This document shows positions 1,272-63,185 of a stretch of DNA of 64,000 bases, piece by piece. The stretch lies in the NCBI GenBank assembly GCA_947488655.1, contig CANKZZ010000006.1, positions 186,001 through 250,000 of the forward strand. The letters are read 5' to 3'. Made by a program: the position numbers and the translations under genes. The first letter of the stretch is position 1. Every line of letters starts with the position of its first letter. Source of the DNA: an uncultured Psychroserpens sp. (GTDB lineage: Bacteria; Bacteroidota; Bacteroidia; Flavobacteriales; Flavobacteriaceae). Under the pieces are notes generated by a model. That model had not been told where the DNA came from. It did not search any database and saw only the letters and a list, made by a program, of their open reading frames with translations.

Positions 1272-2186
1272 ATGATAAAACTCAATGTTAAAAATGAGAC
1301 TTCTCGATTAAGAGAAGTTGTTCTCGGTACAGCTATAAGTAATGGTCCTACACCCACAGAGGAGCAAGCTTACGACCCTAAATCTTTAGAGCATATCAAA
1401 GCAGGAACATATCCTGTAGAAGCAGATATGGTTAAAGAGATGCAAGCTGTAGCTCAGGTTTTTGAAAAATATAACGTCAAAGTATATAGACCACAAATTA
1501 TTGAAAACTGTAATCAAATTTTTAGTAGAGATATTGGTTTTGTTATTGATGATATTTTTATAAAAGCCAATATTTTACCTGATAGAGAAGAAGAGCTAGA
1601 GGCCATACAATACGTTATAGACCAAATGAACCCTAAAAAAGTTATGCGTCCACCAGAAGAGGTGCATATAGAGGGAGGAGACGTGTTATTATATAATAAT
1701 CATATTTTTATTGGCACGTATAGAGAACCAGACTATGCCAATTATATTGTTGCGCGCACAAATATGCAAGGCGTAGAGTATATAGCCAAACAGTTTCCGC
1801 ATAAAACAATTAAAAGTTTTAATCTGCGTAAATCTCAAGTTAATCCAAAAGATAATGCCTTACATCTCGATTGTTGCTTTCAACCCATTGGTACCAATAA
1901 AGCCATATTACACAAAGAAGGATTTCTAGAAGAAGAAGAGTATGAGTGGTTATTAAATTTCTTCGGAAAAGAGAATTGCTTTATCATATCTAAAGATGAA
2001 ATGTATAATATGAACAGTAACGTATTTTCAATTTCGGAAGATGTCATAATTTCAGAACAAAATTTTACACGATTAAATACTTGGTTAAGAGAACAGGGTT
2101 TTACGGTTGAAGAGGTGCCATATGCAGAAATAGCAAAACAAGAAGGCTTGTTACGTTGTAGTACATTGCCTTTGGTTAGAGATTAG
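1272..2186 (+). CDS. Arginine deiminase / dimethylarginine hydrolase-like guanidine hydrolase
   Basis: This is a 304-residue member of the pentein (guanidine-modifying) superfamily, a cytoplasmic enzyme that hydrolyses or transfers amidino groups of arginine-like substrates. The catalytic set is readable: EGGD at residues 134-137, a histidine in ALHLDC (H198), and a C-terminal cysteine in LLRCSTLPL (about C296). The length is close to dimethylarginine dimethylaminohydrolase and shorter than classical arginine deiminase, so the exact substrate cannot be assigned. It starts 12 bases after the gltA terminator and so needs its own promoter or read-through. A second pentein enzyme, ctlX, is at 18.1 kb; together they suggest arginine or citrulline metabolism, which is inference. 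Confidence 0.85.
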   Translation: MIKLNVKNETSRLREVVLGTAISNGPTPTEEQAYDPKSLEHIKAGTYPVEADMVKEMQAVAQVFEKYNVKVYRPQIIENCNQIFSRDIGFVIDDIFIKANILPDREEELEAIQYVIDQMNPKKVMRPPEEVHIEGGDVLLYNNHIFIGTYREPDYANYIVARTNMQGVEYIAKQFPHKTIKSFNLRKSQVNPKDNALHLDCCFQPIGTNKAILHKEGFLEEEEYEWLLNFFGKENCFIISKDEMYNMNSNVFSISEDVIISEQNFTRLNTWLREQGFTVEEVPYAEIAKQEGLLRCSTLPLVRD

Positions 2187-2227
2187 TTTTCGTGCTATGC
2201 TGAAAGGTTTAAAATAATTAAAAGTCG

Positions 2228-3307
2228 TTATTCTTTTACAAAACCATCTCTACGTTTCATATAATCTATAAAATCATCACCCAAGCCCTCTTTCTTTAAA
2301 TAGCTTATAGATACAGGAGTTTCTTTAGGTGTAAAATTTGGGTCTGCAATAACTTGCTTTGGGAAGTCATGATGTAAAATTGCCGAATGACCAATGGTTA
2401 CAAAATCTACTTTAGTCTCTAAAACCTTTTGAACATCTTGGGCAGAATTAATTTTTCCTGCAACTGTCCATTTAACATTTTTAAAATCTAATTCTTCAAA
2501 GTGGGAGAGAAGAGACTTATTTTGAAAGGCATCATCCTCAGGTGTTTTAAAAACATCCCAAAGTGAGATATCTAAAAAATCTATTTGATTAGTATCAATT
2601 AATTGTTGTGCAACGGTTTTTACTTCGTCTAATTGCATTCCAAAACGCTCTGGAGAGAGACGAACACCAATAAGAAATTGTGCTCCACAAGCCTTACGAA
2701 TTCCTTCTACAATTTCAAATATGAGTCGTGCTCTATTGTTTAAGTTTCCGCCATAATTATCTTTACGCTTATTAATGTCTGCACTTAGAAATTGTGTTAA
2801 AATATACCCATGTGCTCCATGAACTTCTACACCATCATAACCACTCTTTTGCGCTCTAATTGCTGCATCTATAAAGTCTTCACGTAATTTATGTACTTCC
2901 TCTAGCGTTAAGGCACGAGCGTTATGTTTCTCTACTTTTGAGGGAGAAACGGGTTGCTCACCAATAACATCTTCGGGTGAGCGCATACCTGCATGATGCA
3001 ATTGTATGACTGCCACACTTCCTTCTTTTTTAATACCATCCACTAACCGTTTATGACCTTCTATGTGTATATCTGAGAAAATTCCTAATTGACCTTTAAA
3101 TCCTTTTCCTATTTTTTGCACATGAGCAGCACAAGTCATAGTTAGGCCAAAACCACCCTTAGAGCGCATTGTTAACCAATTAAATTCATCATTAGATAAA
3201 GTGCCATCTTTATGACTTTGTGTATTAGTCATGGGTGCTAGCATAAAACGATTAGGCATTAGTGTACCACAAGCAAATACAAGTGGTGTTTTTATAGTTT
3301 TAGTCAT
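2228..3307 (-). CDS. NADH:flavin oxidoreductase, Old Yellow Enzyme family
   Basis: This is an FMN-dependent TIM-barrel oxidoreductase of the Old Yellow Enzyme/NemA group, which reduces activated alkenes with NAD(P)H in the cytoplasm. Family features are the N-terminal NRFMLAPMTNT strand, QLHHAGMRS, the active-site segment VHGAHGYILTQFLS followed by a DNYGG-type motif, IGVRLSPERFG, and a C-terminal VTIGHSAILHHDFP in the flavin phosphate region. A GTG codon 21 bases upstream could start a longer protein, but the ATG at 3307 gives the usual N-terminus (359 residues). The gene converges with the upstream hydrolase with no obvious terminator between them. The physiological substrate is unknown. 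Confidence 0.92.
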   Translation of the reverse strand: MTKTIKTPLVFACGTLMPNRFMLAPMTNTQSHKDGTLSNDEFNWLTMRSKGGFGLTMTCAAHVQKIGKGFKGQLGIFSDIHIEGHKRLVDGIKKEGSVAVIQLHHAGMRSPEDVIGEQPVSPSKVEKHNARALTLEEVHKLREDFIDAAIRAQKSGYDGVEVHGAHGYILTQFLSADINKRKDNYGGNLNNRARLIFEIVEGIRKACGAQFLIGVRLSPERFGMQLDEVKTVAQQLIDTNQIDFLDISLWDVFKTPEDDAFQNKSLLSHFEELDFKNVKWTVAGKINSAQDVQKVLETKVDFVTIGHSAILHHDFPKQVIADPNFTPKETPVSISYLKKEGLGDDFIDYMKRRDGFVKE

Positions 3308-3401
3308 ATAATTGAAATTGTTATGCACATTAGATTGTAATAATATGCTTAGCTTTATAAGTGAAATTTATTTTTTGTATTCGTTATAACAGTACAAATA
3401 A

Positions 3402-4441: not shown

Positions 4442-4448
4442 AAATATA

Positions 4449-4755: not shown

Positions 4756-5405
4756 TATTTTGTGGCAATAACCGTTTCGCCTCCTCTAACTTTTTGGTTT
4801 AGTTCTACTTTAATATCTGCATCTAAAGGTAAAAATAAATCTACGCGAGATCCAAATTTGATAAATCCAGAATCTGTTCCCTGCACAGCAGTATCTTCTA
4901 CTTTGGCATAATTAACTATGCGTTTTGCTAGAGCACCAGCAATTTGACGATAAAGTACCTTTCCGAAGTTATCATTTTCTACAACTACAGTAGTTCGTTC
5001 GTTTTCTTCACTAGCTTTTGGATGCCAAGCCACAAGAAATTTTCCTGGATGATATTTTGAGTAGGTTACATTTCCGCCTATAGGATAACGCGTCACATGC
5101 ACGTTAATTGGAGACATAAATACAGATACTTGTATGCGCTTATCGTTAAAAACTTCTTTTTCGAAAACTTCTTCTATAACAACTACTTTACCGTCTACAG
5201 GTGAGACTGCAGTGTGATTTTCTAAAACTGTTAAACGCTTAGGGTTTCTAAAAAATTGTAGAATTAGCACTAACAAAAAGATCATACCTATCATGAGTGC
5301 TAATCTCAACCATGAAGTATCGACAAATCGATCTATGATGAGAATTGAGCCAATAACAATGACTAGCGTAATAAGAATTATTTTATAACCTTCTTTATGA
5401 AACAT
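4755..5405 (-). CDS. psd: Phosphatidylserine decarboxylase proenzyme, short form
   Basis: This enzyme converts phosphatidylserine to phosphatidylethanolamine at the inner membrane. It is 216 residues long, the short archaeal-type class. Residues 8-28 and 33-50 are hydrophobic membrane segments. Conserved motifs are the SPVDGKV strand, VFMSPINVHVTRYPIGG, and the self-cleavage site FIKFGSRVD, where cutting between G185 and S186 would create the pyruvoyl group. Its first 11 bases overlap the end of cdsA and its stop overlaps the ACBP start, so the genes are translationally linked. The upstream enzyme, phosphatidylserine synthase, was not seen in this window. Confidence 0.94.
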   Translation of the reverse strand: MFHKEGYKIILITLVIVIGSILIIDRFVDTSWLRLALMIGMIFLLVLILQFFRNPKRLTVLENHTAVSPVDGKVVVIEEVFEKEVFNDKRIQVSVFMSPINVHVTRYPIGGNVTYSKYHPGKFLVAWHPKASEENERTTVVVENDNFGKVLYRQIAGALAKRIVNYAKVEDTAVQGTDSGFIKFGSRVDLFLPLDADIKVELNQKVRGGETVIATK

Positions 5406-6910: not shown

Positions 6911-6933
6911 ATATGAGTATTAGTGTAAGAAAA

Positions 6934-8901
6934 TTATTCTTCTACCTTATCAGATTTTTTAGATTCTAATAAACGCTCTTCAATTTGCTTTTGAAAAGGA
7001 CGTTCTCCAAAAATCTTTTCTAGATTATCTTTAAAGATTACTTCTTTTTCTAGAAGTACTTCAGCTAGTTCGGTAAGCTTATCTTTATTGTTTTCTAATA
7101 ACGCTATTGCACGTTGGTATTGTTTTTCTATGATATCTGAAATTTCTTTATCAATCAACTCTGCAGTTTGCTCACTATAAGGTTTAGTAAACCCGGTTTC
7201 TTGTCCAGAAGAATCATAATATGTAAGATTGCCTACTTTTTCACTCAGACCATAAATAGTAACCATAGCTCTAGCTTGCTTTGTAACTTTTTCTAAGTCA
7301 CTAAGTGCACCTGTAGAGATTTTGTTAAATATTACTTTCTCTGCAGCTCTACCACCTAATGCAGCACACATTTCGTCCAGCATTTGTTCTGGTCTAACTA
7401 TTAAGCGCTCTTCTGGTAAATACCATGCAGCACCTAATGATTGACCACGAGGCACAATGGTTACTTTTACTAAAGGCGCAGCATGTTCTAACATCCAACT
7501 TACAGTTGCGTGTCCAGCTTCATGATAAGCAATTGCTTTTTTCTCCTCTACAGTAACTATTTTATTTTTCTTCTCTAATCCTCCTACAATACGATCTACT
7601 GCATCTAAGAAATCTTGTTTGTCTACAGCCTTCTTACCGTTTCTAGCAGCAATTAATGCAGCTTCGTTACATACGTTTGCAATATCTGCTCCAGAGAAAC
7701 CTGGAGTTTGTTTAGCTAAGAAATCTACATCAAGTTTTTCGGCTTGTTTGATAGGTCTTAAATGAACTTCAAATATTTCTTTACGTTCTCTAACATCTGG
7801 AAGGTCAACAAATATTTGTCTGTCAAAACGTCCAGCACGCATTAAAGCCTTATCTAAAACATCTGCTCTGTTTGTTGCAGCAAGTACAATTACATTTGTA
7901 TTTGTACCAAAACCATCCATCTCTGTTAATAATTGGTTTAAGGTGTTTTCTCGCTCGTCATTAGATCCAGAGAAATTACTCTTACCACGTGCACGACCAA
8001 TAGCATCAATCTCATCAATAAAGATAATTGCTGGTGATTTTTCTTTGGCTTGTTTAAATAAATCTCTAACACGAGATGCTCCTACACCTACAAACATTTC
8101 TACAAAATCTGAACCAGATAATGAAAAGAAAGGTACTTTAGCTTCTCCTGCTACTGCTTTTGCTAATAAAGTTTTACCTGTACCTGGTTGACCTACCAAT
8201 AAGGCTCCTTTAGGTATTTTACCACCAAGAGATGTATATTTTTCTGGGTTTTTTAAGAAGTCTACAATTTCTTGTACTTCTTCTTTAGCGCCTTCTAAAC
8301 CTGCAACATCTTTAAACGAAGTTTTAACATCTGTTTTTTCGTCAAATAGTTTTGCTTTAGATTTTCCTATGTTGAAAATCTGTCCGCCAGCGCCACCGCC
8401 TCCACCACCAGACATACGTCTCATGATAAAAATCCAAACACCTATTATTAAAATGAACGGTAATAATGAAAACAGTAAATTTCCGAAGAGATTTTCTTCA
8501 GTCTTAAAATTTGGTGCAACATTAATATTATCGTACTCACTATTTACATTATCGATTTTTTCCTGAAATAATTTTAAGTCTCCAAACTCAAATGTATAAT
8601 TTGGTAAAGGTGTAACCTGTGGTAAGATACTAGTTGGTTTAGATGCCTTATGAATTTCTTTTTCTTGAGCTTCTTTTGTTAAGTATACTCGAGCTTCACG
8701 GTCGTTAATGATATCTAATTTATCAACATCGCCTTGAGCCATATAATCAAAAAATTCTGTCGGGTTAATTTTTTTACCTCCAGAATTACCCATTCCGCTA
8801 GAGAATAATTGAATTCCTAAAAAAACTGCGATTACTGTTCCGTAAATCCACCAAGTATTAAACTTTGGTTTTTTACTTAAATTTTTATTGTCTTTTGCCA
8901 T
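6934..8901 (-). CDS. ftsH: ATP-dependent zinc metalloprotease FtsH
   Basis: This is the membrane-anchored AAA+ protease that extracts and degrades misfolded membrane proteins and some soluble regulators. It has 655 residues. TM1 is at about 18-35, followed by a periplasmic domain to about 135. TM2 is at about 140-160 and leads into a six-glycine linker. The AAA module has Walker A GQPGTGKT (237-244), Walker B IFIDEID (293-299) and the second region of homology to R361. The zinc protease motif HEAGH is at 460-464. The C-terminus has the helical tail expected of the family. It is encoded after rsfS and probably shares its promoter; a strong terminator follows. Confidence 0.98.
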   Translation of the reverse strand: MAKDNKNLSKKPKFNTWWIYGTVIAVFLGIQLFSSGMGNSGGKKINPTEFFDYMAQGDVDKLDIINDREARVYLTKEAQEKEIHKASKPTSILPQVTPLPNYTFEFGDLKLFQEKIDNVNSEYDNINVAPNFKTEENLFGNLLFSLLPFILIIGVWIFIMRRMSGGGGGGAGGQIFNIGKSKAKLFDEKTDVKTSFKDVAGLEGAKEEVQEIVDFLKNPEKYTSLGGKIPKGALLVGQPGTGKTLLAKAVAGEAKVPFFSLSGSDFVEMFVGVGASRVRDLFKQAKEKSPAIIFIDEIDAIGRARGKSNFSGSNDERENTLNQLLTEMDGFGTNTNVIVLAATNRADVLDKALMRAGRFDRQIFVDLPDVRERKEIFEVHLRPIKQAEKLDVDFLAKQTPGFSGADIANVCNEAALIAARNGKKAVDKQDFLDAVDRIVGGLEKKNKIVTVEEKKAIAYHEAGHATVSWMLEHAAPLVKVTIVPRGQSLGAAWYLPEERLIVRPEQMLDEMCAALGGRAAEKVIFNKISTGALSDLEKVTKQARAMVTIYGLSEKVGNLTYYDSSGQETGFTKPYSEQTAELIDKEISDIIEKQYQRAIALLENNKDKLTELAEVLLEKEVIFKDNLEKIFGERPFQKQIEERLLESKKSDKVEE

Positions 8902-11417: not shown

Positions 11418-11999
11418 ATGCATTACATATTTGTAAATGATAAACCAATTGTCTTAACAACTAAAGTTGAACAGGAAGACGGTTTTAAAAATTATCTACT
11501 TTCCGAAGTAAATATTGGTAAAGTCATTAAAAAACTTAATTCTACTAATTTAAAAGAAGTTAGACTTATTGGTAAAAAAGAAGATAAACTCATTAAAAAG
11601 TTTTTAAAATTATTACCAAATGTTGTAGCTGGAGGTGGTAAGGTATTTAACGCAAAAGGCGAAATACTTTTTATTTACCGCAACGATAAATGGGATTTGC
11701 CAAAAGGTAAGGCCGAAAAAAAGGAGACTATTGAAGAAACTTCGATTAGGGAAGTAGAGGAGGAGACAGGCGTTAGGGATTTAGAAATTGTAAAGCCATT
11801 ACATACAACTTATCATATTTTTAAGCGTAATGGAAAGCACAAAATCAAAGTAACATATTGGTTTGAAATGAAAACCACGTTTGAAGGCAAACTATACCCT
11901 CAAGAAAATGAAGGCATCACAAAAGTTGAGTGGCTCTCGCCAGAAGAGAGTCAAAAAGCCTTAGAGAATAGTTATGCTAATATTAAAATCTTAGTTTAA
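11418..11999 (+). CDS. Nudix hydrolase
   Basis: This is a 193-residue Nudix-fold hydrolase that would cleave a nucleoside diphosphate linked to another group, using Mg2+ or Mn2+. The Nudix box begins at about residue 96 as GKAEKKETIEETSIREVEEE and continues TGV, matching GX5EX7REUXEEXGU. About 65 N-terminal residues precede the catalytic domain and form a conserved-looking alpha/beta extension of unknown role. WDLPKGK before the box resembles proteins acting on diadenosine polyphosphates or ADP-ribose, but substrate cannot be fixed. It faces pyrE head to head and converges with the amidoligase operon. Confidence 0.92.
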   Translation: MHYIFVNDKPIVLTTKVEQEDGFKNYLLSEVNIGKVIKKLNSTNLKEVRLIGKKEDKLIKKFLKLLPNVVAGGGKVFNAKGEILFIYRNDKWDLPKGKAEKKETIEETSIREVEEETGVRDLEIVKPLHTTYHIFKRNGKHKIKVTYWFEMKTTFEGKLYPQENEGITKVEWLSPEESQKALENSYANIKILV

Positions 12000-12699: not shown

Positions 12700-13922
12700 T
12701 CTTTAAATAACTGATTGGTTTCTAAACATCCAGCAAGTTTTGAGTATACTGCTTTAATGTTATCTTCGGAAATATCTTCACCAAGAGCCTTTAGAATTCT
12801 AGAAGACAAGGTGCCATTATTAAGAATAAATTCTATGGTCTTTTGATTTTCCGAAGAAATATTTGTTTTAACACAGTCATACAAATGTTTCCAAACGTCT
12901 TGCATAGATGCTTTTTCTATTATTCCGAAAAGCGATAAATAATCCACATTATGAACTAATGCATGTTCTCCATGTTTAATTCCGTCATTTAAAATGTCAA
13001 ATAGTTCTTCCTTTTTCCAGGCTTTTTGATTCTTTAAAGTGCAAAACTCTTTGTTTACTAATGCTTTTAAAACTTCAATAATTAAGATGCAAATAGCAAT
13101 ATCTGCTTTTGGACATTCTTGAACATCCACAAGACGAATTTCTATAGCATTCCTGTCAAAACGAGCAATAGCACCTCTAGAGTTTAAAAAATGATGATCT
13201 AAAATGTTCTTAGTATCATGAGGTTTGATTGCCTTTTTTATAGGCTCGAAAATAGTTGCATAATAATCGACCTTGCTAAAAACAGCTTCTGGTATCACTA
13301 AACCAGTCATCTCTGGGACTTCCTTTTGATTGGTTTTGTAATACTCTAAGCGAGAGTCTAAAAATCCTGTGGTTTTGCCTTCTAAAATTGGTGAACTCGC
13401 ACACAATCCAGGAATTAATGGTAACATAATTCTAATGGCTGCGTGGAGTTTTCCAAACTCTATGTCGTCATAAAAAGGTAAGTTAATATGAGTGCTTTGT
13501 ACATTGCTCCAACCATGACCTTTACAGTTGAAAATTCTATTATAGAGCTCATAAACCTCACTATAACTGTGTTTCCATAACTGAGTATCTTTTAATGGAT
13601 TCATTAAAGGATGTGACGCAGTTGGTAACAATTGAGTGTCAATTTGCTTTAGTAGTGTATTGATTTCAAGGATGTTTTTATGAAATGTGTCAGCAAGGGT
13701 TTCTAAATCTGCTGTTGGACCATTCGTTTTTAATTCAACCACATGCGCAACTAATTCATTACTCCAAGCAATCTTACCATTGTCAATATCTGATGTGAGT
13801 GTTCCATTTTTTAATGTCAATAATTGATCTACAACAGGTGCCACTTTAAAGTTAGAATTATTAACAAGCATATATTCTAACTCAATGCCAAAAACTTCAA
13901 AAAGGTGATAATTTTTACCCAT
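12696..13922 (-). CDS. GCS2-family carboxylate-amine ligase (amidoligase operon)
   Basis: This 408-residue protein is of the glutamate-cysteine ligase family 2 (GCS2), glutamine-synthetase-fold enzymes that join a glutamate-type carboxylate to an amine using ATP. The FGIELEYMLV opening is the diagnostic metal-binding strand; further motifs are STHINLPFYDD and the core RGAIARFDRNAIEIRLVDVQECPKAD split over about 245-270. It starts two bases after the stop of the RimK-like gene and overlaps the FGase gene by four. Ordinary glutathione synthesis is unlikely, because no glutathione synthetase is present and the ATP-grasp partner is of the RimK type. I infer formation of a gamma-glutamyl or peptide-like amide of unknown structure. 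Confidence 0.85.
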   Translation of the reverse strand: MGKNYHLFEVFGIELEYMLVNNSNFKVAPVVDQLLTLKNGTLTSDIDNGKIAWSNELVAHVVELKTNGPTADLETLADTFHKNILEINTLLKQIDTQLLPTASHPLMNPLKDTQLWKHSYSEVYELYNRIFNCKGHGWSNVQSTHINLPFYDDIEFGKLHAAIRIMLPLIPGLCASSPILEGKTTGFLDSRLEYYKTNQKEVPEMTGLVIPEAVFSKVDYYATIFEPIKKAIKPHDTKNILDHHFLNSRGAIARFDRNAIEIRLVDVQECPKADIAICILIIEVLKALVNKEFCTLKNQKAWKKEELFDILNDGIKHGEHALVHNVDYLSLFGIIEKASMQDVWKHLYDCVKTNISSENQKTIEFILNNGTLSSRILKALGEDISEDNIKAVYSKLAGCLETNQLFKD

Positions 13923-15762: not shown

Positions 15763-17529
15763 TTACTTTATAGAGTATATTGGATATTGTAAATGTGCTT
15801 TTTCATAATTTTCACTTTGTTTGTGTAACCAATCTAATTGTGCATACCAATTATTAGCAAAGTCTTCATCAAAGGTCTTTTTTAAGTTATAATCTATTTG
15901 CAATTTAGGGTTAGCTTTTAACAATTGTTGGGCTTTATCTTCCCATATATATGGAGAAAAACCTTCCTTTTGCTGTAAAATAGTATCAAAAAAATTCCAG
16001 CTAAAAAATGAATCTGGAGCTTGTGGCTCTAAAGTTTCTATTACGTATCTAAACCCATTTTGGTTGGTGTTAATTAAATAATCACCTTTAAAGAATGTTA
16101 CTTTTTCTTCGGAAACATCTAACGCTACATTATAATGAGAATAATGACCTTCGTAAGGCTGTTTTCTAGTCTCGTAATTTTTAATTTTATACGATTTTAC
16201 TGTTAAAATTGTATCCCTTTCAAAACGTGACATTTCAATATTATTCAGTTTTAATAGTTCTATTATATTCCACCAACCTTGCGGAATAATGTATGCTTCA
16301 GGGATCTCAATATCTAAGATTGAAGTCATATAATTTTTATAGTCTACAGGTTTTGTGAACGGTTTATTGGTGTCATATTTTAATCGTTTAGCACCTGTAA
16401 AATTACTTTCAATCATGGTGCCTTCAAACCCTTTAAAATTTAAAGTTGTAGTTTTTGTGGTATCAATCGTCCATTGTATAGGATACACTTTTTTGTTTAT
16501 AAAATTGGATACAGCATCTTTTCTTAAAGCAGAAATAGTTTCGCCTTCATCCTCTGTAATTTCTATCATACTTTTCATAAGCTCATAAGTACCTTCTACA
16601 CGTTGTTTGTAAGGTTTTAACATATGTGTTTCTACCATCATGCCTAATGTGTTCCATAACGTTGTGTAACCGGTTGAATATCGAGGAGAATCCATAAACT
16701 GACTAAAACCTTCATCTGGCGTTCTATTAAATACATTAACATAAGGTGTAATATCCCAAGCTTTTTGTACAAGTTTTTCTTCCAGTTGAGGCATCATTTT
16801 AGTGTGGAGAAAATCACCAAGGTCGCCACCTAATTTATTATGCTGTGTAAATAAATGGGTTAGAGTATATTGATAATCTGCTCCATTACTTACATGATTA
16901 TCAATAAAAACATCTGGTTGTATTAAATGAAAAATCTGAGCAAATGTTCTAGCGTTTTTTGTGTCACTTTTTATAAAATCTCTATTCAAATCAAAATTAC
17001 GAGCATTACCTCTAAAGCCATACGATTCTGGACCGTTTTGATTCGTTCTAGTTGTAGAATTTCGGTTTAAACTACCACCAACATTATAAATTGGTATGGT
17101 GACTAAAACTGTAGATTTTGGCATATCAATGTTGCCTTCAACAATATCACGAAAGAGCATCATTGTAGCATCTGTGCCATCAGATTCTCCAGGATGTATA
17201 CCATTATTAATTAATAGCACACGCTTTGATTTTCTAATTTCAGAATAATTAAAAACAGCATCTGCACTAAGGGTAACTATGTGCAAAGGTTTACCAGAAT
17301 CTGTCTCACCGATACTATCAATTTTTACTTCGGAAAATGTTTGAGCCAAGCTCTCGTAAAAAGCAATGGTTTCATCATAAGTTGCTGTCTCTAGACCATT
17401 CGATTTTTCAAATTTTGTAATGAAATCATACGAGATTTTGTCTGTTTTAGAACTACATGACCAAATAGTAAATATGAAGACTAAAATGAAGAAATGAATT
17501 ATAATCTGGTTTTTAGATAGATATCGCAT
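15763..17529 (-). CDS. M14-family metallocarboxypeptidase lipoprotein
   Basis: This 588-residue exported zinc peptidase has a lipobox-like signal (FIFTIWSCSS, cysteine at about 25), so it should be anchored on the periplasmic side of a membrane. The M14 domain spans about residues 40-330: zinc ligands HPGES (about 113-117) match HxxE, NFDLNRDF holds the substrate-binding arginine, and a later histidine lies in FIDNHVSNGADY. A glutamate in GMMVETHML is the probable catalytic base. The C-terminal ~250 residues are not recognised. It lies upstream of the amidoligase operon on the same strand but 392 bases away. A link to processing the operon's product is speculation. Confidence 0.88.
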   Translation of the reverse strand: MRYLSKNQIIIHFFILVFIFTIWSCSSKTDKISYDFITKFEKSNGLETATYDETIAFYESLAQTFSEVKIDSIGETDSGKPLHIVTLSADAVFNYSEIRKSKRVLLINNGIHPGESDGTDATMMLFRDIVEGNIDMPKSTVLVTIPIYNVGGSLNRNSTTRTNQNGPESYGFRGNARNFDLNRDFIKSDTKNARTFAQIFHLIQPDVFIDNHVSNGADYQYTLTHLFTQHNKLGGDLGDFLHTKMMPQLEEKLVQKAWDITPYVNVFNRTPDEGFSQFMDSPRYSTGYTTLWNTLGMMVETHMLKPYKQRVEGTYELMKSMIEITEDEGETISALRKDAVSNFINKKVYPIQWTIDTTKTTTLNFKGFEGTMIESNFTGAKRLKYDTNKPFTKPVDYKNYMTSILDIEIPEAYIIPQGWWNIIELLKLNNIEMSRFERDTILTVKSYKIKNYETRKQPYEGHYSHYNVALDVSEEKVTFFKGDYLINTNQNGFRYVIETLEPQAPDSFFSWNFFDTILQQKEGFSPYIWEDKAQQLLKANPKLQIDYNLKKTFDEDFANNWYAQLDWLHKQSENYEKAHLQYPIYSIK

Positions 17530-18992: not shown

Positions 18993-19621
18993 TCAATTTT
19001 ATTAAAAATATAACCACCTTTTTCTGCACCCCAAATATGCTCATCTCTATCGTCAAAACCTCTATCCCAAGAGATAATTTTGTCTTCCATTATTTCAACT
19101 TCGCTAGTTGCATATGATGCTCCATAAAGTGAACTTTTACACGTTTTGTCTCCAGTCTTGCCTTTAAAAAAATTAGGTGAAATTCGTTTTAAAATAACTT
19201 CACAGCCCTCTTTTTTACTTACATCGCTCATACTAAGTGTATCAAAATCTTTAGGAGATTTCCATTTGCCAACCCATAGCGAGTCGTTTTTGATAGTATA
19301 AATTGCAGAGCTATACAAACTATCATTAAGTTGCGTAACTTCATAAATACGCTGCCTATAGGGTTTATCTTGCTTTGTATTTAGTGCTTGCTCTACATAT
19401 AAAAAGTTTCCTTTATCTGGCCAGATAGGATACATATGTAATGAAATATTAAAATAAGTAGAGTCTACTTGCGATTGTATTTCAGAATCAAAAGAACCTT
19501 GCATTATCGAGAAAAGTTCTGGCAAATGGTTTGTGATTTCTTTTTCTTCGGAAATTTTAGCCTCTTTATTTTTACAGCTAAAAACAGAAATTAAGAGACA
19601 TAAAATAATAAATCGTTGCAT
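18989..19621 (-). CDS. CpcT/CpeT-like lipoprotein
   Basis: The ATG at 19621 gives a 210-residue protein opening with a lipoprotein signal (MQRFIILCLLISVFSCKN), a better start than the upstream in-frame codon. The mature part matches the CpcT/CpeT family: MQGSFDSEIQSQVD, LYVEQALNTKQDKPYRQRIY, CEVILKRISPNFFKG and a C-terminal WDRGFDDRDEHIWGAEKGGYIF. In cyanobacteria these proteins attach bilins to phycobiliproteins. Nothing photosynthetic is present here, and the protein is membrane-anchored outside the cytoplasm, so the fold has probably been put to another ligand-binding use. The actual ligand is unknown. Confidence 0.85.
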   Translation of the reverse strand: MQRFIILCLLISVFSCKNKEAKISEEKEITNHLPELFSIMQGSFDSEIQSQVDSTYFNISLHMYPIWPDKGNFLYVEQALNTKQDKPYRQRIYEVTQLNDSLYSSAIYTIKNDSLWVGKWKSPKDFDTLSMSDVSKKEGCEVILKRISPNFFKGKTGDKTCKSSLYGASYATSEVEIMEDKIISWDRGFDDRDEHIWGAEKGGYIFNKID

Positions 19622-23344: not shown

Positions 23345-25129
23345 ATGAATCTTCAAGAGACACTCTCACTTAACGTAAAACAGGCTATTAAAACTGTTTT
23401 TAAGGCAGAATTAGAATCGGTAGAATTTCAAGCAACACGAAAGGAGTTTGCAGGAGATATTACTGTAGTTGTGTTTCCAATGTTGAGAGTTGTAAAGGGA
23501 AATCCAGTTCAAATTGGAGAAAATATAGGTCAGTATTTGGTTGAACACGTTGACGAAGTTAAAGCATTTAACGTTGTCAAAGGATTTTTAAATATTGAGA
23601 TTAATGACGCTTATTATATCAACTTTTTTAATAACATAAAAGATAATTCGCAATATGGATTTGCAGCTCCAAATTCAAAAGGAAAAGCTGTGATGGTTGA
23701 GTATTCTTCACCAAACACCAACAAGCCTTTGCATTTAGGCCATATTAGAAATGTGATTTTAGGCTATAGTGTTGCAGAAATTTTAAAAGCTTCGGGTAAA
23801 AAAGTTTACAAGACCCAAATCATTAACGATAGAGGTATACATATTTGTAAAAGTATGTTGGCCTGGAAACGCTTCGGAAATGAAGAAACTCCACAATCGT
23901 CAGGTTTAAAAGGCGATAAGCTAGTTGGTAACTATTACGTGAAATTTGATAAAGAATATAAAGCTGAAATACAACAGCTCGTTTCCGAAGGACAAACCGA
24001 AGAGGACGCTAAGAAGAATGCACCAATTCTATTAGAAGCTCAAGATATGTTGCTCAAATGGGAAGCAGGAGATAAAGATACTGTATCTCTTTGGCAAACA
24101 ATGAATAGTTGGGTTTACGAAGGTTTTGATGCAACATATAAAAGTATAGGTGTTGATTTTGATAAATTATACTATGAAAGTCAAACCTATTTGTTAGGAA
24201 AAGAATTTGTTGCCGAAGGATTAAAATCTGGAGTATTTTTCAAAAAAGATGATGGTTCTGTTTGGTGTGATCTCACTGAGGATGGGCTAGATGAGAAAAT
24301 TGTATTGCGTAGCGATGGTACAGCAGTGTATATGACGCAAGATATTGGTACAGCAATTCAGCGTGTTAAAGATTTTCCAGATGTTGGAGGTATGGTTTAC
24401 ACAGTTGGTAATGAACAAGAGTATCATTTTCAAGTATTATTCTTAATCATTAAAAAACTCGGTTTTGATTGGGCAGATAATTTATACCATTTAAGTTATG
24501 GTATGGTAGATTTACCTTCAGGAAAAATGAAGAGTAGAGAAGGTACTGTAGTAGATGCCGATGATTTGGTAGATGAAATGGCACAAACTGCTGGAGAAAT
24601 TTCTGAAGAATTAGGTAAGCTTGAAGGCTATTCTTCCGAAGAAAAACAAGATTTATATAAAACGATTGGTTTAGGTGCTTTAAAATATTTCATCTTAAAA
24701 GTAGATCCTAGAAAACGTATTTTATTTGATCCAAAAGAGTCTATAGATTTTCAAGGAAATACGGGTCCGTTTATACAATACACTTACGCTAGAATACAAT
24801 CTATTTTGCGTAAGTCTAATGTAGACACCTCTATCAGTATAAGCGCTAATAAGTTAACCTTACATATTAAAGAACGAGAACTCTTAAAACAATTAGAGCT
24901 ATTTACAGAAGTAATCGCAAATGCAGCAGATAATTATAGTCCTGCGCTAATTGCAAATTACACTTATGACTTAGTTAAGGAGTTTAACTCATTTTACCAA
25001 AATGTTTCAATTTTAGGAGCAGATACCGAGAATGAAAAAATATTCAGAGTACAATTAGCACAATCTGTATCTAATGTTATTAAAAATGCTTTTGGTTTAC
25101 TAGGTATAAATGTGCCAGAGCGTATGTAA
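23345..25129 (+). CDS. argS: Arginyl-tRNA synthetase
   Basis: This class I synthetase charges tRNA-Arg. It has 594 residues with the N-terminal Add1 domain (residues 1-110), the HIGH-type signature HLGHIRN after SSPNTNKPL (about 118-133), and the catalytic Rossmann fold with TVGNEQEYHFQVLF. The KMSKS-equivalent GKMKSREG is at about 394-401, and the helical anticodon-binding domain, rich in aromatic residues, runs from about 480 to the end. The final GINVPERM is the conserved C-terminus. It is transcribed alone, divergent from GH53. Confidence 0.97.
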   Translation: MNLQETLSLNVKQAIKTVFKAELESVEFQATRKEFAGDITVVVFPMLRVVKGNPVQIGENIGQYLVEHVDEVKAFNVVKGFLNIEINDAYYINFFNNIKDNSQYGFAAPNSKGKAVMVEYSSPNTNKPLHLGHIRNVILGYSVAEILKASGKKVYKTQIINDRGIHICKSMLAWKRFGNEETPQSSGLKGDKLVGNYYVKFDKEYKAEIQQLVSEGQTEEDAKKNAPILLEAQDMLLKWEAGDKDTVSLWQTMNSWVYEGFDATYKSIGVDFDKLYYESQTYLLGKEFVAEGLKSGVFFKKDDGSVWCDLTEDGLDEKIVLRSDGTAVYMTQDIGTAIQRVKDFPDVGGMVYTVGNEQEYHFQVLFLIIKKLGFDWADNLYHLSYGMVDLPSGKMKSREGTVVDADDLVDEMAQTAGEISEELGKLEGYSSEEKQDLYKTIGLGALKYFILKVDPRKRILFDPKESIDFQGNTGPFIQYTYARIQSILRKSNVDTSISISANKLTLHIKERELLKQLELFTEVIANAADNYSPALIANYTYDLVKEFNSFYQNVSILGADTENEKIFRVQLAQSVSNVIKNAFGLLGINVPERM

Positions 25130-32703: not shown

Positions 32704-32731
32704 TGAGTTAGTCCTAACTAATTCTATTTAT

Positions 32732-32757
32732 AAAAAGCCACCGAAAGGTGGCTTTTT
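32732..32757 (+). terminator. Intrinsic terminator after the giant protein gene
   Basis: AAAAAGCCACC and GGTGGCTTTTT pair perfectly around a GAAA tetraloop (11-bp stem), 28 bases after the stop codon. Confidence 0.95.
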
Positions 32758-32829
32758 CTATATTAGAAAACTTTATTTGCAATTTGCACGTATATAGAAT
32801 TAGACATTAAAATTTAAACCCCAATTTTT

Positions 32830-33420: not shown

Positions 33421-33441
33421 CTCCCAAAAAAATATAGCACT

Positions 33442-33475
33442 AAAAAGGCTCAAGATTATTTCTTGAGCTTTTTTT
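33442..33475 (+). terminator. Intrinsic terminator after the barrel protein gene
   Basis: GCTCAAGA (33448-33455) pairs with TCTTGAGC (33461-33468), followed by seven T and preceded by an A-tract. Confidence 0.9.
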
Positions 33476-33520
33476 GTAAGTATCATAAAACCTAATGGGA
33501 TGAGATAACGTAGATTGAAT

Positions 33521-40487: not shown

Positions 40488-41363
40488 ATGACAATTCTAG
40501 ACGGTAAAAAAGTAAGCAACGACATTAAAAACGAAATTAAGCAACAGGTTGATAAAATGAAGGCTAAAAACGAGAAAGTACCTCATTTGGCTGCAGTTAT
40601 TGTTGGTAATGATGGAGCAAGTTTAACCTATGTTGGTAGTAAAGTTCGTGCTTGTGAACGTGTAGGATTTGAGTCTACTATGGTGAGGCTTTCTAATACA
40701 ACTAGCGAAATAGAGTTGTTAGACAAAATTGAAGAGCTAAATCAAAATGATGATATAGACGGGTTTATCATCCAATTACCGCTTCCACCGCAAATTAATA
40801 CCCAAAAAGTATTGATGGCAGTAGATCCAAGTAAGGATGTAGATGGGTTTCATCCCGAAAACTTCGGAAAAATGGCTTTAGATATGAGTACATTTATTCC
40901 TGCAACTCCATTTGGTATTTTAGAGCTTTTAGATCGTTATGGTGTTGAAACAAAAGGTAAACATACAGTCGTTATTGGTAGGAGTCATATAGTTGGACGT
41001 CCTATGAGCATATTAATGGGACGTAAAGGTTTTCCAGGAAACTCAACTGTTACTTTAACACATAGTCACACAAAAAATATAACACAAATTACTTCTCAAG
41101 CAGATATAATTATTTCGGCTTTAGGTGTTCCAAATTTTTTAAAGGCAGAGATGGTTAAAGATGACGCTGTCATTATAGACGTTGGTATAACGAGAGTCCC
41201 TGATGATTCTACACCAAAAGGCTATAGAATTACAGGAGATGTAGATTTTGATAATGTAAGTAAAAAAGCGAGTTACATAACTCCAGTGCCAGGTGGAGTA
41301 GGACCAATGACGATTGCAATGCTTCTTAAGAATACCTTATTAGCGAGAGAGCAGCGCATGTAA
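40488..41363 (+). CDS. folD: Bifunctional methylene-THF dehydrogenase / cyclohydrolase FolD
   Basis: This enzyme interconverts 5,10-methylene-, methenyl- and 10-formyl-tetrahydrofolate with NADP+. It is 291 residues. Motifs are PHLAAVIVGNDGAS, the catalytic YVGSK lysine (about 44-48), GFIIQLPLPPQIN, DVDGFHPENFG, the dinucleotide-binding VIGRSHIVGRPM and the end signature TPVPGGVGPMTIAMLL. It follows the ffh terminator by 43 bases and is probably transcribed separately. Confidence 0.97.
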   Translation: MTILDGKKVSNDIKNEIKQQVDKMKAKNEKVPHLAAVIVGNDGASLTYVGSKVRACERVGFESTMVRLSNTTSEIELLDKIEELNQNDDIDGFIIQLPLPPQINTQKVLMAVDPSKDVDGFHPENFGKMALDMSTFIPATPFGILELLDRYGVETKGKHTVVIGRSHIVGRPMSILMGRKGFPGNSTVTLTHSHTKNITQITSQADIIISALGVPNFLKAEMVKDDAVIIDVGITRVPDDSTPKGYRITGDVDFDNVSKKASYITPVPGGVGPMTIAMLLKNTLLAREQRM

Positions 41364-41415: not shown

Positions 41416-42138
41416 ATGATTTTGATAATTACTACTGCAATAGATCGTGTGTTAATATTAAGTTTAGAACATCTATTACCTATTGGCTTAGCATTTTGTT
41501 TTGCAGTAGCTTTAATTATGTATGCTAAGCGTATTTCTTCGGAAAATCAGCAACGTATCATACATTATCTCGCCATTTTTATTTCGGTTACGGTAATTAC
41601 ATTTCATGTTTATAGAATGTTTTCTACACCCTATAATATTAGAACAGATTTACCACTTTATTTATGTAGTCTCTTAGCAATATTAATTCCGTTTTATACA
41701 TATTATAAGAAGTATTGGATGTTCGAAATTTTAGTATTTTGGATTATTGCAGGAACTTTACAAGGTGTAATCACACCAGATATTGCAGATGGATTTCCTA
41801 GTTTGGATTACTTTAGATATTGGATTGTACACTTAGGTTTGCTAACTGTAATGTTCTATAGTGTTTTTGTGTTTGAGCTAAAACCTAAATTGAAAAGTGT
41901 GTTTAAATCATTTCTGGCTCTACAAGTTTATGTACTATTGATGGTTGCAATTAATAATCTTCTAGATGCAAATTATTTTTATTTGAATAGAAAACCAGCA
42001 TCTGCTTCGGTATTAGATTATTTTGGAGATTGGCCTTATTATATTATTGTGGCTCAGTTGATTATAATTCCGTTATTTCTCTTAATTTATTTGCCTTTTT
42101 ATATTTCCGAAGTAAATAAAAAATCACTTAGCAAATAA
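41416..42138 (+). CDS. TIGR02206-type integral membrane protein
   Basis: This 240-residue protein has about seven membrane helices (around 13-32, 44-62, 80-96, 102-122, 137-157, 167-184 and 210-232). [14 protein letters not shown] and [12 protein letters not shown] match the TIGR02206/YwaF family of unknown function. The charged and polar residues inside helices could line a transport path, but no activity is known to me. It follows folD by 52 bases and overlaps the convergent VOC gene by 15 bases. Confidence 0.8.
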
Positions 42139-42796: not shown

Positions 42797-43367
42797 TTAT
42801 TTGAGGTCAGGTCTTACACATTCAATTTTCCAAAAAGCATATGTTGTAGTTTCTGTTTTATCTACCCATTCACCAATCCATTTATAACCTTTATCATTTA
42901 TATCATAAAATGTTAATCTAGAGAAACCATCTGTTCCGTTAGGTGCTTTTTGGTCTTTATATAAAACGATGTTTCCGTTTTTGGATGTATTGCCTTCCCA
43001 AGTTGAGAGCGTTGAGGTAGGTGAGGCAGATGCGTAATAATGTACATACCATTTGCTACTGTCTGCATTAAATTGTCTTATACTACCAGAATGATTGCCA
43101 TCTGTTTTTAGGGTTTCCATCTTGTACAGCCATTCCGTTCATGATGTATTTCCATTTCCAGGTCATATCTATTGGTTTTGCCCAAGTACCATCTTGTTTT
43201 CTTGATGTAGATTTACATTGACATAAACCAATTAAAGCCTGATAATCTTTTGTTTGCTTAGGTGCTAAAGGATTTACATTTCCGAAGGGAAAAGATTTAG
43301 AAGTGTCGTAATCATATTGAGAAAAACCAAAAACCGAAAATAAAAGCAGAAAAACTAAAAGTCGCAT
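42797..43367 (-). pseudogene. Secreted protein gene disrupted by a one-base frameshift
   Basis: Two overlapping frames together make one protein. The first part (from the ATG at 43367) has a signal peptide (MRLLVFLLLFSVFGFSQ) and runs to WKWKYIMNGMAVQD. After that the correct continuation, ETLKTDGNHSGSIRQF, is in the next frame and runs to the end at 42797 (WKIECVRPDLK). Removing one of the two C residues at 43117-43118 (GG on the coding strand) restores a single 189-residue frame. The encoded protein resembles small secreted flavobacterial proteins of unknown function with repeated WY-containing strands. It is either a recent pseudogene or a base-call error. Confidence 0.85.
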
Positions 43368-46549: not shown

Positions 46550-47107
46550 TTACCAATGTATTATAAAATACTTCACCTTTGCGTCATCTGGTATTTGAAC
46601 AGGCTCAATATTGAGAGTCATATCAAATCTTAAATTAGCTGGTAATTCTTTTTTATCTATAGTAAACGACGCATTAATTTCATTAACCGAAATTACTACT
46701 GAGTTTATAAGATTATTTATACTAGAAATTTTATACGCATCCTTAATCTCTTTAAATGTACTTAACGTAGAGATCTGCTTTTTGGTTTTATATTTTTCAC
46801 TTATAATTTGAATACTTTCAATCACAGAAGTAGAATCGAGTACCTGCTGAGGTGTAAGACTTAAAAGTTTTTTTCCTTCGGAAGAATAGACCTCAATGTC
46901 GTTGTTTTGACCCGTAAATTCGTCTCCTTTAATTGAGCCCATTACTATAGAATCTTGAGCAAAGACTAATTTTAAATCTTTAACTTGTGTAGAATCTGTT
47001 AAGAGGCCAATACTTTGTTTATTTATTAAAAAAGGGTTTTGTTCTTTTTCAGTAGTGCAATTTAAAAGCATCACTGCTAAAGCAATAACAATTAATAAGT
47101 TTTTCAT
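46550..47107 (-). CDS. Hypothetical lipoprotein
   Basis: This 185-residue protein has a clear lipoprotein signal (MKNLLIVIALAVMLLNCTTE, cysteine 17). The mature part is beta-rich with a DSTQVKDLKLVFAQDSIV segment and a C-terminal sheet ending in KVKYFIIHW. I do not recognise a family. Its location 35 bases upstream of YitT and 35 downstream of the HerA-like gene suggests a loose same-strand cluster. Function is unknown. Confidence 0.7.
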   Translation of the reverse strand: MKNLLIVIALAVMLLNCTTEKEQNPFLINKQSIGLLTDSTQVKDLKLVFAQDSIVMGSIKGDEFTGQNNDIEVYSSEGKKLLSLTPQQVLDSTSVIESIQIISEKYKTKKQISTLSTFKEIKDAYKISSINNLINSVVISVNEINASFTIDKKELPANLRFDMTLNIEPVQIPDDAKVKYFIIHW

Positions 47108-48738: not shown

Positions 48739-49185
48739 ATGAAAAATTTACTATTAATTATTACTTTAAGCTTTTGTTTTCAAAACATATCATGTGTAAA
48801 AAGTTCTTCGGAAATCGTCTTTCATAAATCTCACGAAGCCAAAAAAGCGCAAGCACCTTTTAGCGATGCAGTTGAAGCTAATGGATTTTTATTTTTAGCA
48901 GGACAAGTTGGTATGAATCATAAAACAAGAACGCTAGTTGAAGGCGGAATAACTGCAGAAACAAAACAATGTTTAGAAAATATTAAAGCTGTTTTAGAGT
49001 ACCATAATGTTGGCTTAGATCAGGTAGTAAAGTGCACTGTGATTTTAAAAGATATAAATGATTTTGAAGCTTTTAATGAAGTTTATAAAAGCTATTTTCC
49101 GAAGAAACCTGCAAGAACAACATTTGCAGCCTCTGGATTAGCTGTTGGTTCTCGTATAGAAATTGATGTAATCGCTGTAAAGTAG
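48739..49185 (+). CDS. Exported RidA-family protein
   Basis: This 148-residue protein is of the RidA/YjgF/UK114 family, which in the cytoplasm hydrolyses reactive enamine and imine intermediates. Unusually it starts with a lipoprotein-like signal (LLLIITLSFCFQNISCVKS), so it should lie outside the cytoplasm. The RidA core is complete: AQAPFSDAVEANGFLFLAG, the catalytic arginine in KKPARTTFAASGL (about 125) and the closing IEIDVIAVK with its glutamate. Whether it is a deaminase at that location is an open question. It is divergent from the HerA-like gene. Confidence 0.88.
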   Translation: MKNLLLIITLSFCFQNISCVKSSSEIVFHKSHEAKKAQAPFSDAVEANGFLFLAGQVGMNHKTRTLVEGGITAETKQCLENIKAVLEYHNVGLDQVVKCTVILKDINDFEAFNEVYKSYFPKKPARTTFAASGLAVGSRIEIDVIAVK

Positions 49186-52546: not shown

Positions 52547-52818
52547 ATTTGTGTAAATTGAAACATTCAGCTTTCAAAAAAAAGAGTATGACATAATAAA
52601 TATCGCTTTTTTAAGGGCATTTTATGATTTATGGACGTGTTAAAATAACGACTTAGACGAATGTTGTTATTTTAGCTCATTTCCGAAGATGTTAAAAATG
52701 ATTAAAATTTAATTTAAGGTGCTTTTTAGGCGATTTAAGAGCGTTTTAAGTAATTAACAAATGTTAATAATTATTGAAGTCTATCGATGAAAAGCTTTTA
52801 AAAAGCCTCGGTTTTTCG

Positions 52819-58172: not shown

Positions 58173-58787
58173 ATGAAGTCGAGATGGTACATTAGTATTC
58201 TCATTATAGGTCTAACCTTTTTAGGTAGCATAGCTAGCACACAGCAAGTTACAGCGCCTAATCAGGAAATTGTACTTCAGTTTACTTCCCAAAAAGTTTC
58301 TAAAGATATTGCACAAGATGCAATTAATAATATTACACAGCAGTTAGAAATCGCTGGTGTAAATGATGTTGAGGTTAAAACACTCAAAAATGGTCAATTA
58401 AAAATTTCTTACTTCAGTAATACAGATGTAAGTAGTATTAAGGAGTTATTATCTAGCGCGTGTGATTTAAATTTAGGTTATGCTTCTAATGCAGTTGACC
58501 ATAATGCACCACCTTCCGAAGAAAAAAATATTAGTTATAATGTTGATGTCTATGAGATCCAGCAAGGCGAAACACTTTTTGAACTTGAAGGAAATTTAGC
58601 TTTAGAAACAAAGGCAGACAATGATAGGATTCTAAATCCTAATGTGTTTGCATCTCATCAAAGTGTAAAGATTGAGTTTAAAGAGTGTATTGACAAGGTT
58701 GCTTATGATTTAAGTGCTACGATATCAATTGCTATAGATAATAATTCTTACAAAATCCCAGAGGTTCGAGCAGGACCTACTACTTAG
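58173..58787 (+). CDS. Hypothetical exported protein, possibly SecD P1-base-like
   Basis: This 204-residue protein has an N-terminal hydrophobic signal or anchor (ISILIIGLTFLGSIAS, about 7-22). Residues 30-100 (EIVLQFTSQKVSKDIAQDA to VEVKTLKNGQLKISYFSN) have the strand-helix-strand pattern of the SecD P1 base: a helix with regularly spaced hydrophobics ending in a G-V-x-x-V turn, then two strands. Similarity is weak and by eye only. It lies 39 bases after the SecD-like lipoprotein gene and 205 before secDF, all on one strand. TATATTTG at 58161-58168 is only four bases from the ATG, so its own promoter is uncertain. Function is unknown. Confidence 0.65.
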   Translation: MKSRWYISILIIGLTFLGSIASTQQVTAPNQEIVLQFTSQKVSKDIAQDAINNITQQLEIAGVNDVEVKTLKNGQLKISYFSNTDVSSIKELLSSACDLNLGYASNAVDHNAPPSEEKNISYNVDVYEIQQGETLFELEGNLALETKADNDRILNPNVFASHQSVKIEFKECIDKVAYDLSATISIAIDNNSYKIPEVRAGPTT

Positions 58788-61974: not shown

Positions 61975-61994
61975 TATTCTTAAATATTTAATTT

Positions 61995-62029
61995 AAAAAA
62001 GCCATTTCTATAGAAATGGCTTTTTTTTT
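61995..62029 (+). terminator. Intrinsic terminator after secDF
   Basis: A 20-base perfect palindrome (62001-62020: GCCATTTCTA and its complement) flanked by A6 and T9. Confidence 0.95.
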
Positions 62030-62160
62030 ATCACAAACGTATACTCATACAAACCCTTTTATAAACTTATAAGAAAGACTAGTTAAAAGTTTTAATCTTT
62101 ATGTATATTTTCTAAACTGTAACAATTAAGTTGTTTTTTGCTCTTACTATATAAATACGT

Positions 62161-62682
62161 ATGCTTAAAAATATCTTTGTAATACTCATAACTTTTTTGT
62201 GTTTATATACGCATGCACAAAGCGGAGAAGTGAGTAATCCCATAAAATATAAAAACACCTTTAAAGACGTTGTGTTTTCTCCAGGTATTATAGTACAGCA
62301 CGAGACATTTTTAGATTTTAATTTAGCTTTTGGAGAAGTGACTGTGATTAACGGTAAAATACCTCTTATTGGTTTTGATGGTTTTAGAGTAGGAGTAGAG
62401 ACTAATTTAAGGGATGGTCATAACCATACTATTGCACCAAAAATAGGCTACGAATTATCTGCAACAGTGTTTTCAATACGTTTATCTGCAGTTAATTATT
62501 TTCAAAATGGTAATTCTTAATTTAGACTACTACCAGAATTTGGTTTTAGCTACAACGGTTGGGTAAACCTCACTTACGGTTATGGTATACCATTTAATAA
62601 TGGTAATCTTAACAATGTTAGTTACCATAGAGTAGCTTTAAGCTTTAATATAGATAAACGCTTAATACAAGCTCGTTATTAG
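62161..62682 (+). pseudogene. Membrane-barrel protein gene interrupted by an in-frame TAA
   Basis: The reading frame opens with a signal peptide (MLKNIFVILITFLCLYTHAQ) and strand-rich sequence (FDGFRVGVETNLRDGH, IAPKIGYELSATVFSIRLSAV), and reaches TAA at 62518-62520 after 119 residues. The same frame continues without another stop for 53 codons (FRLLPEFGFSYNGWVNLTYG to RLIQARY) to TAG at 62680-62682, in the same barrel style. The full protein would be about 173 residues. Its end overlaps the convergent DUF192 gene by four bases, as at three other gene pairs here, which supports 62682 as the true end. Either a nonsense mutation or a base-call error. Confidence 0.8.
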
Positions 62683-63185
62683 TTTATGACTTTAAATGTA
62701 ATGGTATCACCTTTTTCTAAAGACCACGCATCACTCAAGCCAGCATTCACTTCTAGAACATATTTAGCAGGAGCTTCAGATGGTAAAGACATTTCATTCA
62801 TTGGTTGCGCATTTTTTTGAATGCTCACTACAGACCTGTCTTCAGCAATAAAAATTATATCTAAAGCAATTTCTGTGTTTTTCATGTAAAAGGATCTAAA
62901 ATCTGTATCTGGAAAAACAAATAACATCCCTTGATTGTTTTGCATGCTTTGACGATACATTAAACCAGTTTGAGTAGAGTATTCATCATCAGCAATTTCA
63001 ATATCTATAGTTGCTAATATAGAGTCTGTAATTGCTTTTTTAAGTGTTAACTCTCCTTCTTTTGTGAATTTTACTTCAACTTTTTTTACTTCGGAAGTTT
63101 TACGTGTTTCTTTACATGACGAGAGTTGCAAGGCAACGATTCCGAAGCATAAAAACCATAATACCTTATTTGCTAAGTGTTTCAT
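62679..63185 (-). CDS. DUF192 lipoprotein
   Basis: This 168-residue protein has a lipoprotein signal (LQLSSCKET, cysteine 24) and a DUF192 domain. Family features are IEIADDEYSTQTGLMYRQSM (about 81-100), GMLFVFPDTDFRSFYMKNTEIALDIIFI (about 106-133, written here in pieces: GMLFVFPD, FYMKNTEIALDI), and YVLEVNAGLSDAWSLEKGD. The family is of unknown function; the fold is a small beta barrel. It is 3 bases downstream of lgt and very likely co-transcribed with it. Lgt would lipidate this protein itself. Confidence 0.9.
   Translation of the reverse strand: MKHLANKVLWFLCFGIVALQLSSCKETRKTSEVKKVEVKFTKEGELTLKKAITDSILATIDIEIADDEYSTQTGLMYRQSMQNNQGMLFVFPDTDFRSFYMKNTEIALDIIFIAEDRSVVSIQKNAQPMNEMSLPSEAPAKYVLEVNAGLSDAWSLEKGDTITFKVIN

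Follow-up and report, generated by a model that had tools for sequence, protein, structure and literature searches.

A highly over-represented octamer in a Psychroserpens genome as a probable self-DNA uptake signal in part of the Flavobacteriaceae

Results

Thirty copies of an octamer in the window

The DNA analyzed here (the window) is a stretch of 64,000 nucleotides from an uncultured Psychroserpens sp. (GenBank assembly GCA_947488655.1, contig CANKZZ010000006.1, positions 186,001 to 250,000), whose nearest named relatives, judged by a conserved protein, belong to the Flavobacteriaceae (Algibacter, Bizionia, Olleya and others). It contains 30 exact copies of the 8-letter word TTCCGAAG, 15 on each strand, compared with a mean of 0.91 and a maximum of 4 copies in 100 dinucleotide shuffles. 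An initial annotation of the sequence, which expected one or two copies by chance, had listed these copies and noted their balanced orientation, and both points were reproduced. The same holds for its finding that only two further TTCCGAA cores are present, at 2033 and 12923, and for its account of the context: 20 copies are read as Ser-Glu (16 in sense direction with TCC, four on the other strand), eight as Phe-Gly and one as Phe-Pro-Lys, one lies outside open reading frames (ORFs), and in 22 of the 30 a T precedes the word. The copies, each an exact match, are located as follows.

1961..1968, minus strand, motif copy
4961..4968, plus strand, motif copy
8481..8488, plus strand, motif copy
11501..11508, plus strand, motif copy
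12764..12771, minus strand, motif copy
12849..12856, plus strand, motif copy
16107..16114, minus strand, motif copy
17328..17335, minus strand, motif copy
19546..19553, minus strand, motif copy
23872..23879, minus strand, motif copy
23983..23990, plus strand, motif copy
24634..24641, plus strand, motif copy
27705..27712, minus strand, motif copy
34201..34208, plus strand, motif copy
34620..34627, minus strand, motif copy
34906..34913, plus strand, motif copy
36442..36449, minus strand, motif copy
37664..37671, minus strand, motif copy
40862..40869, minus strand, motif copy
41537..41544, minus strand, motif copy
42105..42112, plus strand, motif copy
43280..43287, plus strand, motif copy
46876..46883, minus strand, motif copy
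48806..48813, minus strand, motif copy
49097..49104, plus strand, motif copy
52681..52688, plus strand, motif copy, the only one in the window that lies in no ORF of at least 100 codons
55938..55945, plus strand, motif copy
58514..58521, plus strand, motif copy
63089..63096, minus strand, motif copy
63140..63147, plus strand, motif copy

The longest stretch without the motif (27713-34200) includes the 3' part of one ORF (25327-32703, plus strand) that encodes 2,458 residues.

The word is enriched genome-wide and at the DNA level

With the reversed word GAAGCCTT as a control, the whole genome (3.6 Mb, 20 contigs) was found to contain 1,194 copies of TTCCGAAG (580 + 614), one per 3.0 kb, versus 119 of the control (57 + 62). 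The enrichment is thus not limited to the window. Further analyses were performed on a 464 kb sample of this genome, consisting of the window and 20 other stretches, in which ORFs of at least 100 codons cover ∼421 kb. The sample holds 178 copies, of which 75 lie in sense and 78 in antisense direction to genes and 25 outside ORFs, so no preference for the gene strand was observed. When synonymous codons were shuffled, 6.1 copies were expected in the ORFs and 153 were present, which makes TTCCGAAG the most enriched of all 8-mers. Five of the six registers were enriched, and the density outside ORFs (0.59 per kb; 25 in 42.7 kb) exceeded that within them (0.36 per kb; 153 in 421 kb), with the highest value in gaps between convergent genes (8 copies in 5.4 kb, 1.5 per kb). 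A preference for certain codons or codon pairs could in principle create such a word, and Ser-Glu is indeed its commonest reading (16 of 30 in sense direction in the window). Because of the codon shuffle, the registers and the higher density outside ORFs, this origin is rejected, and we give it next to no credence.

The flanks of the word are constrained as well. The initial annotation had reported that Ser-Glu pairs using TCC keep a T before and a G after; in the sample this applied to 58 of 60 in-frame TCC-GAA pairs, and these 58 account for about one fifth of the 265 TCC codons. Variants altered at the ends were rarer than expected ([ACG]TCCGAAG, 0 versus 7.7; TTCCGAA[ACT], 10 versus 21.4). 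The TTCCG[CGT]AG variants TTCCGCAG, TTCCGTAG and TTCCGGAG carried the flank signature and could represent weak sites; TGCCGAAG and TACCGAAG were enriched without this signature and were not counted. A T was found at position -1 in 128 of the 178 copies, and a one-sided A-tract follows the core on its 3' side, with A in 95-143 of 178 copies at each position from +8 to +13. By hand count, 7 of the 25 copies outside ORFs read ACATTTCCGAAG. In nine other motif-rich genomes the A-tract was weaker (A 0.42-0.57 at +8 to +11, 201 pooled copies).

The copies are spaced more evenly than random ones (pooled coefficient of variation 0.815 versus 0.97; 13 of 2,000 simulations were as low), in line with one of the properties that the initial annotation had put forward for checking. 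Orientation showed no link to GC skew, as 57 of 112 copies in blocks of positive mean skew and 31 of 66 in the one block of negative mean skew lay on the plus strand, and replication polarity is therefore absent. Conservation of sites between congeners showed no clear excess over the 15-18% of background 8-mers, although numbers were small: 2 of 15 (G045), 3 of 9 (G267) and 0 of 3 (G168) own sites were kept, and 2 of 6 and 3 of 7 in the reverse direction. Congeners maintained the density of the word and few of its positions (2 of 15 and 3 of 9). In loci L148-L150 of G168, GGAACAGC, CCTGTGAT and AGTCCGGT each occurred in 20-30 bins of 60 kb versus ∼1-2 expected, which probably reflects a long repetitive gene.

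Enrichment is patchy and, in the sampled genomes, limited to Flavobacteriaceae

Genomes with at least three times as many copies as control words were defined as motif-rich. In a survey of 397 genomes of the family, with counts read by hand from the table, 34 were motif-rich, two of them (G259 and G372) only because of a rare control word. In G372 just 5 copies of GAAGCCTT were counted in 2 Mb, which resembles avoidance. The richest genomes contained 2,678 (G279), 2,187 (G012), 2,099 (G063) and 1,976 copies (G243), and G012 and G279 reached ∼0.7 per kb. In a set of 247 genomes drawn over the phylum, the maximum among those from outside the family was 424 copies (G415). In the sampled genomes enrichment is patchy and limited to Flavobacteriaceae, and it can differ within a genus (417 and 1,251 copies in g73).

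Ten named genomes were also surveyed. The word exceeded its control in Salinimicrobium profundisediminis (1,340 versus 321), Aequorivita vladivostokensis (1,075 versus 255), A. lipolytica (914 versus 191), Christiangramia portivictoriae (913 versus 179), Christiangramia lutea (314 versus 210) and Patiriisocius marinus (499 versus 95). No enrichment was found in Bizionia echini (123 versus 184), Olleya sediminilitoris (50 versus 139), an Algibacter metagenome-assembled genome (MAG; 54 versus 137) and a Dokdonia MAG (25 versus 147).

Some other word biases were observed. Three genomes of genus g11 (G010, G242 and G394) contained 5-10 TTCCGAAG in ∼3 Mb, far below the control, and avoidance is possible. 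In a Dokdonia MAG, and also in Nonlabens, the palindrome TTTCGCGAAA within GCTTTCGCGAAAGC was strongly enriched in a manner resembling the cyanobacterial word HIP1 (loci L075, L077 and L050); 22 kb of this MAG contained 16 copies of TTCGCGAA, both strands counted together.

A related word is enriched in another genus

In two genomes of genus g118, TTCCGAAG was less frequent than its control (135 versus 284, in G118, and 115 versus 320). Instead, 120 kb of G118 contained 31 copies of ATCCGCAG, versus 3.8 expected from a second-order model, and ATCCGGAG, CTCCGCAG and the palindrome CTCCGGAG were likewise raised. Within ORFs, 30 copies were counted versus 2.8 under the codon null, in four registers. 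In the 120 kb, positions +9 to +11 were rich in A. TTCCGAAG and ATCCGCAG have TCCG.AG in common. Genome-wide, ATCCGCAG occurred 777 times in G118 (0.25 per kb) and 435 times in its congener G313 (0.13 per kb), followed within the family by G297 (250), G289 (204) and G094 (202), genomes of 4.6-5.0 Mb. The reversed control of ATCCGCAG is rare both in the g118 genomes (32 and 57) and elsewhere, and ratios of at least 10 arise at low counts (197 versus 17 in G007; 106 versus 7 in G131); the case for a dialect is therefore based on density and the codon null. TTCCGCCA, considered as a dialect word in G068, was attributed to a codon effect of glycine runs. Among 80 named loci of 5-22 kb, which are small samples, no convincing dialect was identified.

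The word is accordingly real, genome-wide and DNA-level, and it has a dialect. The DNA-level signal postulated in the initial annotation is supported by the registers, the presence on both strands, the codon shuffle, the A-tract, the patchy taxonomy and the related dialect.

A candidate receptor pair and ComEC

A transposon screen in Riemerella anatipestifer yielded eight genes essential for transformation, including those for a DUF5689/DUF5017 protein and a neighboring barrel protein with a carboxypeptidase-regulatory domain, according to the part of PMC8459023 consulted. The Psychroserpens genome encodes such a pair (C1:465064-466491 and 466551-469421), the domains of which match the published one, with DUF5017 just under the cut-off. 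The DUF5689 protein has, as read by eye, a lipoprotein-like N-terminal signal, and it scored 200.8 of 475 bits against the NCBIfam M949_1556 lipoprotein family, below the cut-off. Together with ComEC, the DUF5689 protein and the adjacent outer-membrane barrel protein form a set with a predicted function in transformation. The pair was found together in 20 of 20 neighborhoods, and a barrel homolog above 300 bits was present in 42 of 44 loci (exceptions G164 and G064). Two tandem DUF5689 matches were present in the DUF5689 protein of G114, G284 and G076.

Within ∼9 kb downstream of the receptor pair, an OmpA/PD40 gene was identified in 9 of 12 motif-rich versus 0 of 8 motif-poor 20-kb neighborhoods; in shorter loci of G027, G039 and G198 (motif-rich) and G042 (motif-poor) the edge of this gene was seen. 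A PorP/SprF gene accompanies it downstream of the DUF5689 gene (L183:256-8441 in G000), and in the Psychroserpens genome a surface protein of 1,750 residues, sorted by the type IX secretion system (T9SS), is encoded beside both. PorP/SprF and OmpA/PD40 genes are common paralogous T9SS families that we have no grounds to connect with uptake, and their association with motif-rich genomes may come from shared synteny.

Barrel types and phylogeny

From residue ∼131 on, the barrel protein occurs in two types, A and B. One probe of 196 residues per type was compared with the 397 genomes, and 311 rows were assigned by hand; the other 86, which matched weakly or not at all and include motif-rich G202, G293 and G302, were excluded. 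The motif-rich genomes comprised 27 of the 103 assigned to type A, none of the 137 assigned to type B and 3 of the 71 left unclear. A naive Fisher test, which ignores ancestry, gave p 1e-11. By genus, the numbers were 17 of 67 for type A versus 0 of 91 for type B. With a threshold of twice the control, one type-B genome (G335) became rich. The word-to-control ratio had a median of 1.1 for type A and 0.56 for type B.

Trees of 26 genomes showed the adjacent upstream gene in agreement with the species split, and this also applied to the first 130 residues of the barrel protein. The split was rejected for the barrel part (p 0.004) and for the DUF5689 protein (p 0.0001) in approximately unbiased (AU) tests of a group that was named after earlier trees had been seen. 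It thus seems that lineages have exchanged the two candidate receptor genes with one another. The genus of the Psychroserpens genome is about equally close to eight type-B (92.3% housekeeping identity) and three type-A motif-poor relatives (90.8%). By its barrel it stands closer to type A, with 70.9% identity to these three relatives, 59.9% to the motif-rich clade and 55.9% to the type-B set. Type A looks permissive for the motif and not sufficient for it, with the barrel among the candidate readers of the word.

Discussion

The initial annotation had named an uptake-like sequence, a recombination or segregation site and a modification motif as possible explanations for the word, and the first of these fits best. 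TTCCGAAG with the preceding T and the following A-tract is probably a self-DNA uptake signal in part of the Flavobacteriaceae, as judged from sequence. A surface receptor, for which the DUF5689 protein, its outer-membrane barrel partner or both are the likeliest candidates, would bind word-bearing DNA and hand it over to ComEC. Since fragments with the word would enter and recombine more often, copies would build up genome-wide by molecular drive and not by selection at each site, as for the DNA uptake sequence (DUS) of Neisseria and the uptake signal sequence (USS) of Haemophilus. That the signal belongs to a third, independently evolved family, located in Bacteroidota, with dialects and read by a surface DUF5689/barrel pair without a type IV pilus, is in our estimation an even call.

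Several observations weigh against such a role. ComEC and DUF5689 were present in 44 of 44 genomes, both motif-rich and motif-poor, so possession of the machinery is in itself no predictor of the motif, and the presence of either gene was rejected as the switch. Known uptake signals make use of type IV pili with a pilin as receptor (ComP, and ComN as a proposed one), and a T2SSE-type ATPase was above the Pfam cut-off in one of 13 genomes (G313) and not in the Psychroserpens genome, in a search that did not include pilins. Type A does not guarantee the motif: of 103 such genomes, 76 fall short of motif-rich, and ORF samples of 51-127 kb from six type-A motif-poor genomes (G068, G009, G053, G157, G087 and G171) revealed no dialect. 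On the trees of the 26 genomes the motif label changes twice for the species, three times for the barrel and four times for DUF5689; the distribution of the motif is therefore explained at least as well by ancestry as by the candidate receptor genes. Inverted pairs, as terminators, were infrequent, with 10 neighboring pairs closer than 120 bases among 178 copies, six of them inverted. Transition products of the core, which might be enriched if uptake sites were decaying, were not (TTTCGAAG, 8 versus 12.4; TTCTGAAG, 31 versus 36.4; TTCCAAAG, 20 versus 23.7).

This last result would also be expected if the word were the site of a methyltransferase or other modification enzyme or the product of biased repair, as considered for HIP1, and the depletion of end variants is what a word-completing process would leave. 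However, restriction sites are usually avoided and not enriched, HIP1 is a palindromic, highly iterated cyanobacterial octamer while TTCCGAAG is not palindromic, and the A-tract outside the core would stay unexplained, which makes this explanation unlikely. A Chi-like or other recombination or repair signal, read by AddAB/RecBCD or similar enzymes and kept as protection of own DNA, would be a short, asymmetric, over-represented and lineage-specific word in coding and intergenic DNA, as observed here, and Chi words do vary between lineages. Chi and the FtsK-orienting polar sequences (KOPS) are, however, oriented with replication. Since this polarity is absent, with plus-strand copies evenly divided in blocks of positive GC skew, the polar recombination or segregation site of the initial annotation is disfavored. 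The 3' A-tract and the even spacing are also features that we do not know from Chi, and we regard a signal of this kind as improbable. Even spacing, A-tract and genome-wide spread would suit the binding site of a nucleoid or chromosome-organizing protein. Segregation motifs are polar or regional, and the patchiness of this word between and within genera, as in g73, would be odd for a housekeeping role; we consider such a site quite improbable.

The proposed uptake signal shares with the DUS of Neisseriaceae, which is read by ComP, a short asymmetric word present in hundreds to thousands of copies, in both orientations, in genes and between them, and dialects with a common core, here TCCG.AG. 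It differs in phylum, in its unrelated word, in the lack of a T2SSE-type ATPase above the cut-off in the Psychroserpens genome, in the DUF5689/barrel pair as candidate receptor and in the few close inverted pairs. USS cores carry A/T tracts, two of them phased. Like the USS of Pasteurellaceae, the word here consists of a core of 8-9 bases followed by a one-sided A/T tract, with comparable density in the richest genomes, but the word is unrelated, one A-tract replaces two phased ones and the machinery is another. With HIP1 it has in common a highly iterated octamer of unsettled function, and it differs from it in its asymmetry and one-sided A-tract. The closest match in machinery is the transformation system of R. 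anatipestifer and R. columbina, whose essential pair corresponds to the DUF5689+DUF5017 gene and its barrel neighbor here (PMC8459023, in the part consulted). R. columbina prefers its own DNA; the k-mers in the consulted part of PMC7965970 are A-rich, none resembles TTCCGAAG, and their function was left open there. Dialects of the DUS are described in PMC3630211, and according to PMC12616744 selection of DNA in this manner is known from no families other than Neisseriaceae and Pasteurellaceae, both as far as excerpted. Beyond the k-mer counts of PMC7965970, the part of the open-access literature covered, which leaves aside most subscription papers and preprints, reports no enriched uptake word in Bacteroidota. 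The letters of the word occur in 1,097 of the papers covered, 20 examples of which concern other topics; one that also mentions genome, motif and flavobacteria is about a Bacteroides protease.

If the proposal is correct, this would be a third case of such a word, in another phylum and with an apparently different outer-membrane machine, which would mean that these words evolve repeatedly. It would also supply the little-understood flavobacterial transformation system with a candidate receptor, and placing the word on donor DNA would give geneticists working on marine Flavobacteria a practical tool. Lineages that exchange the receptor genes would then change the partners with which they trade DNA.

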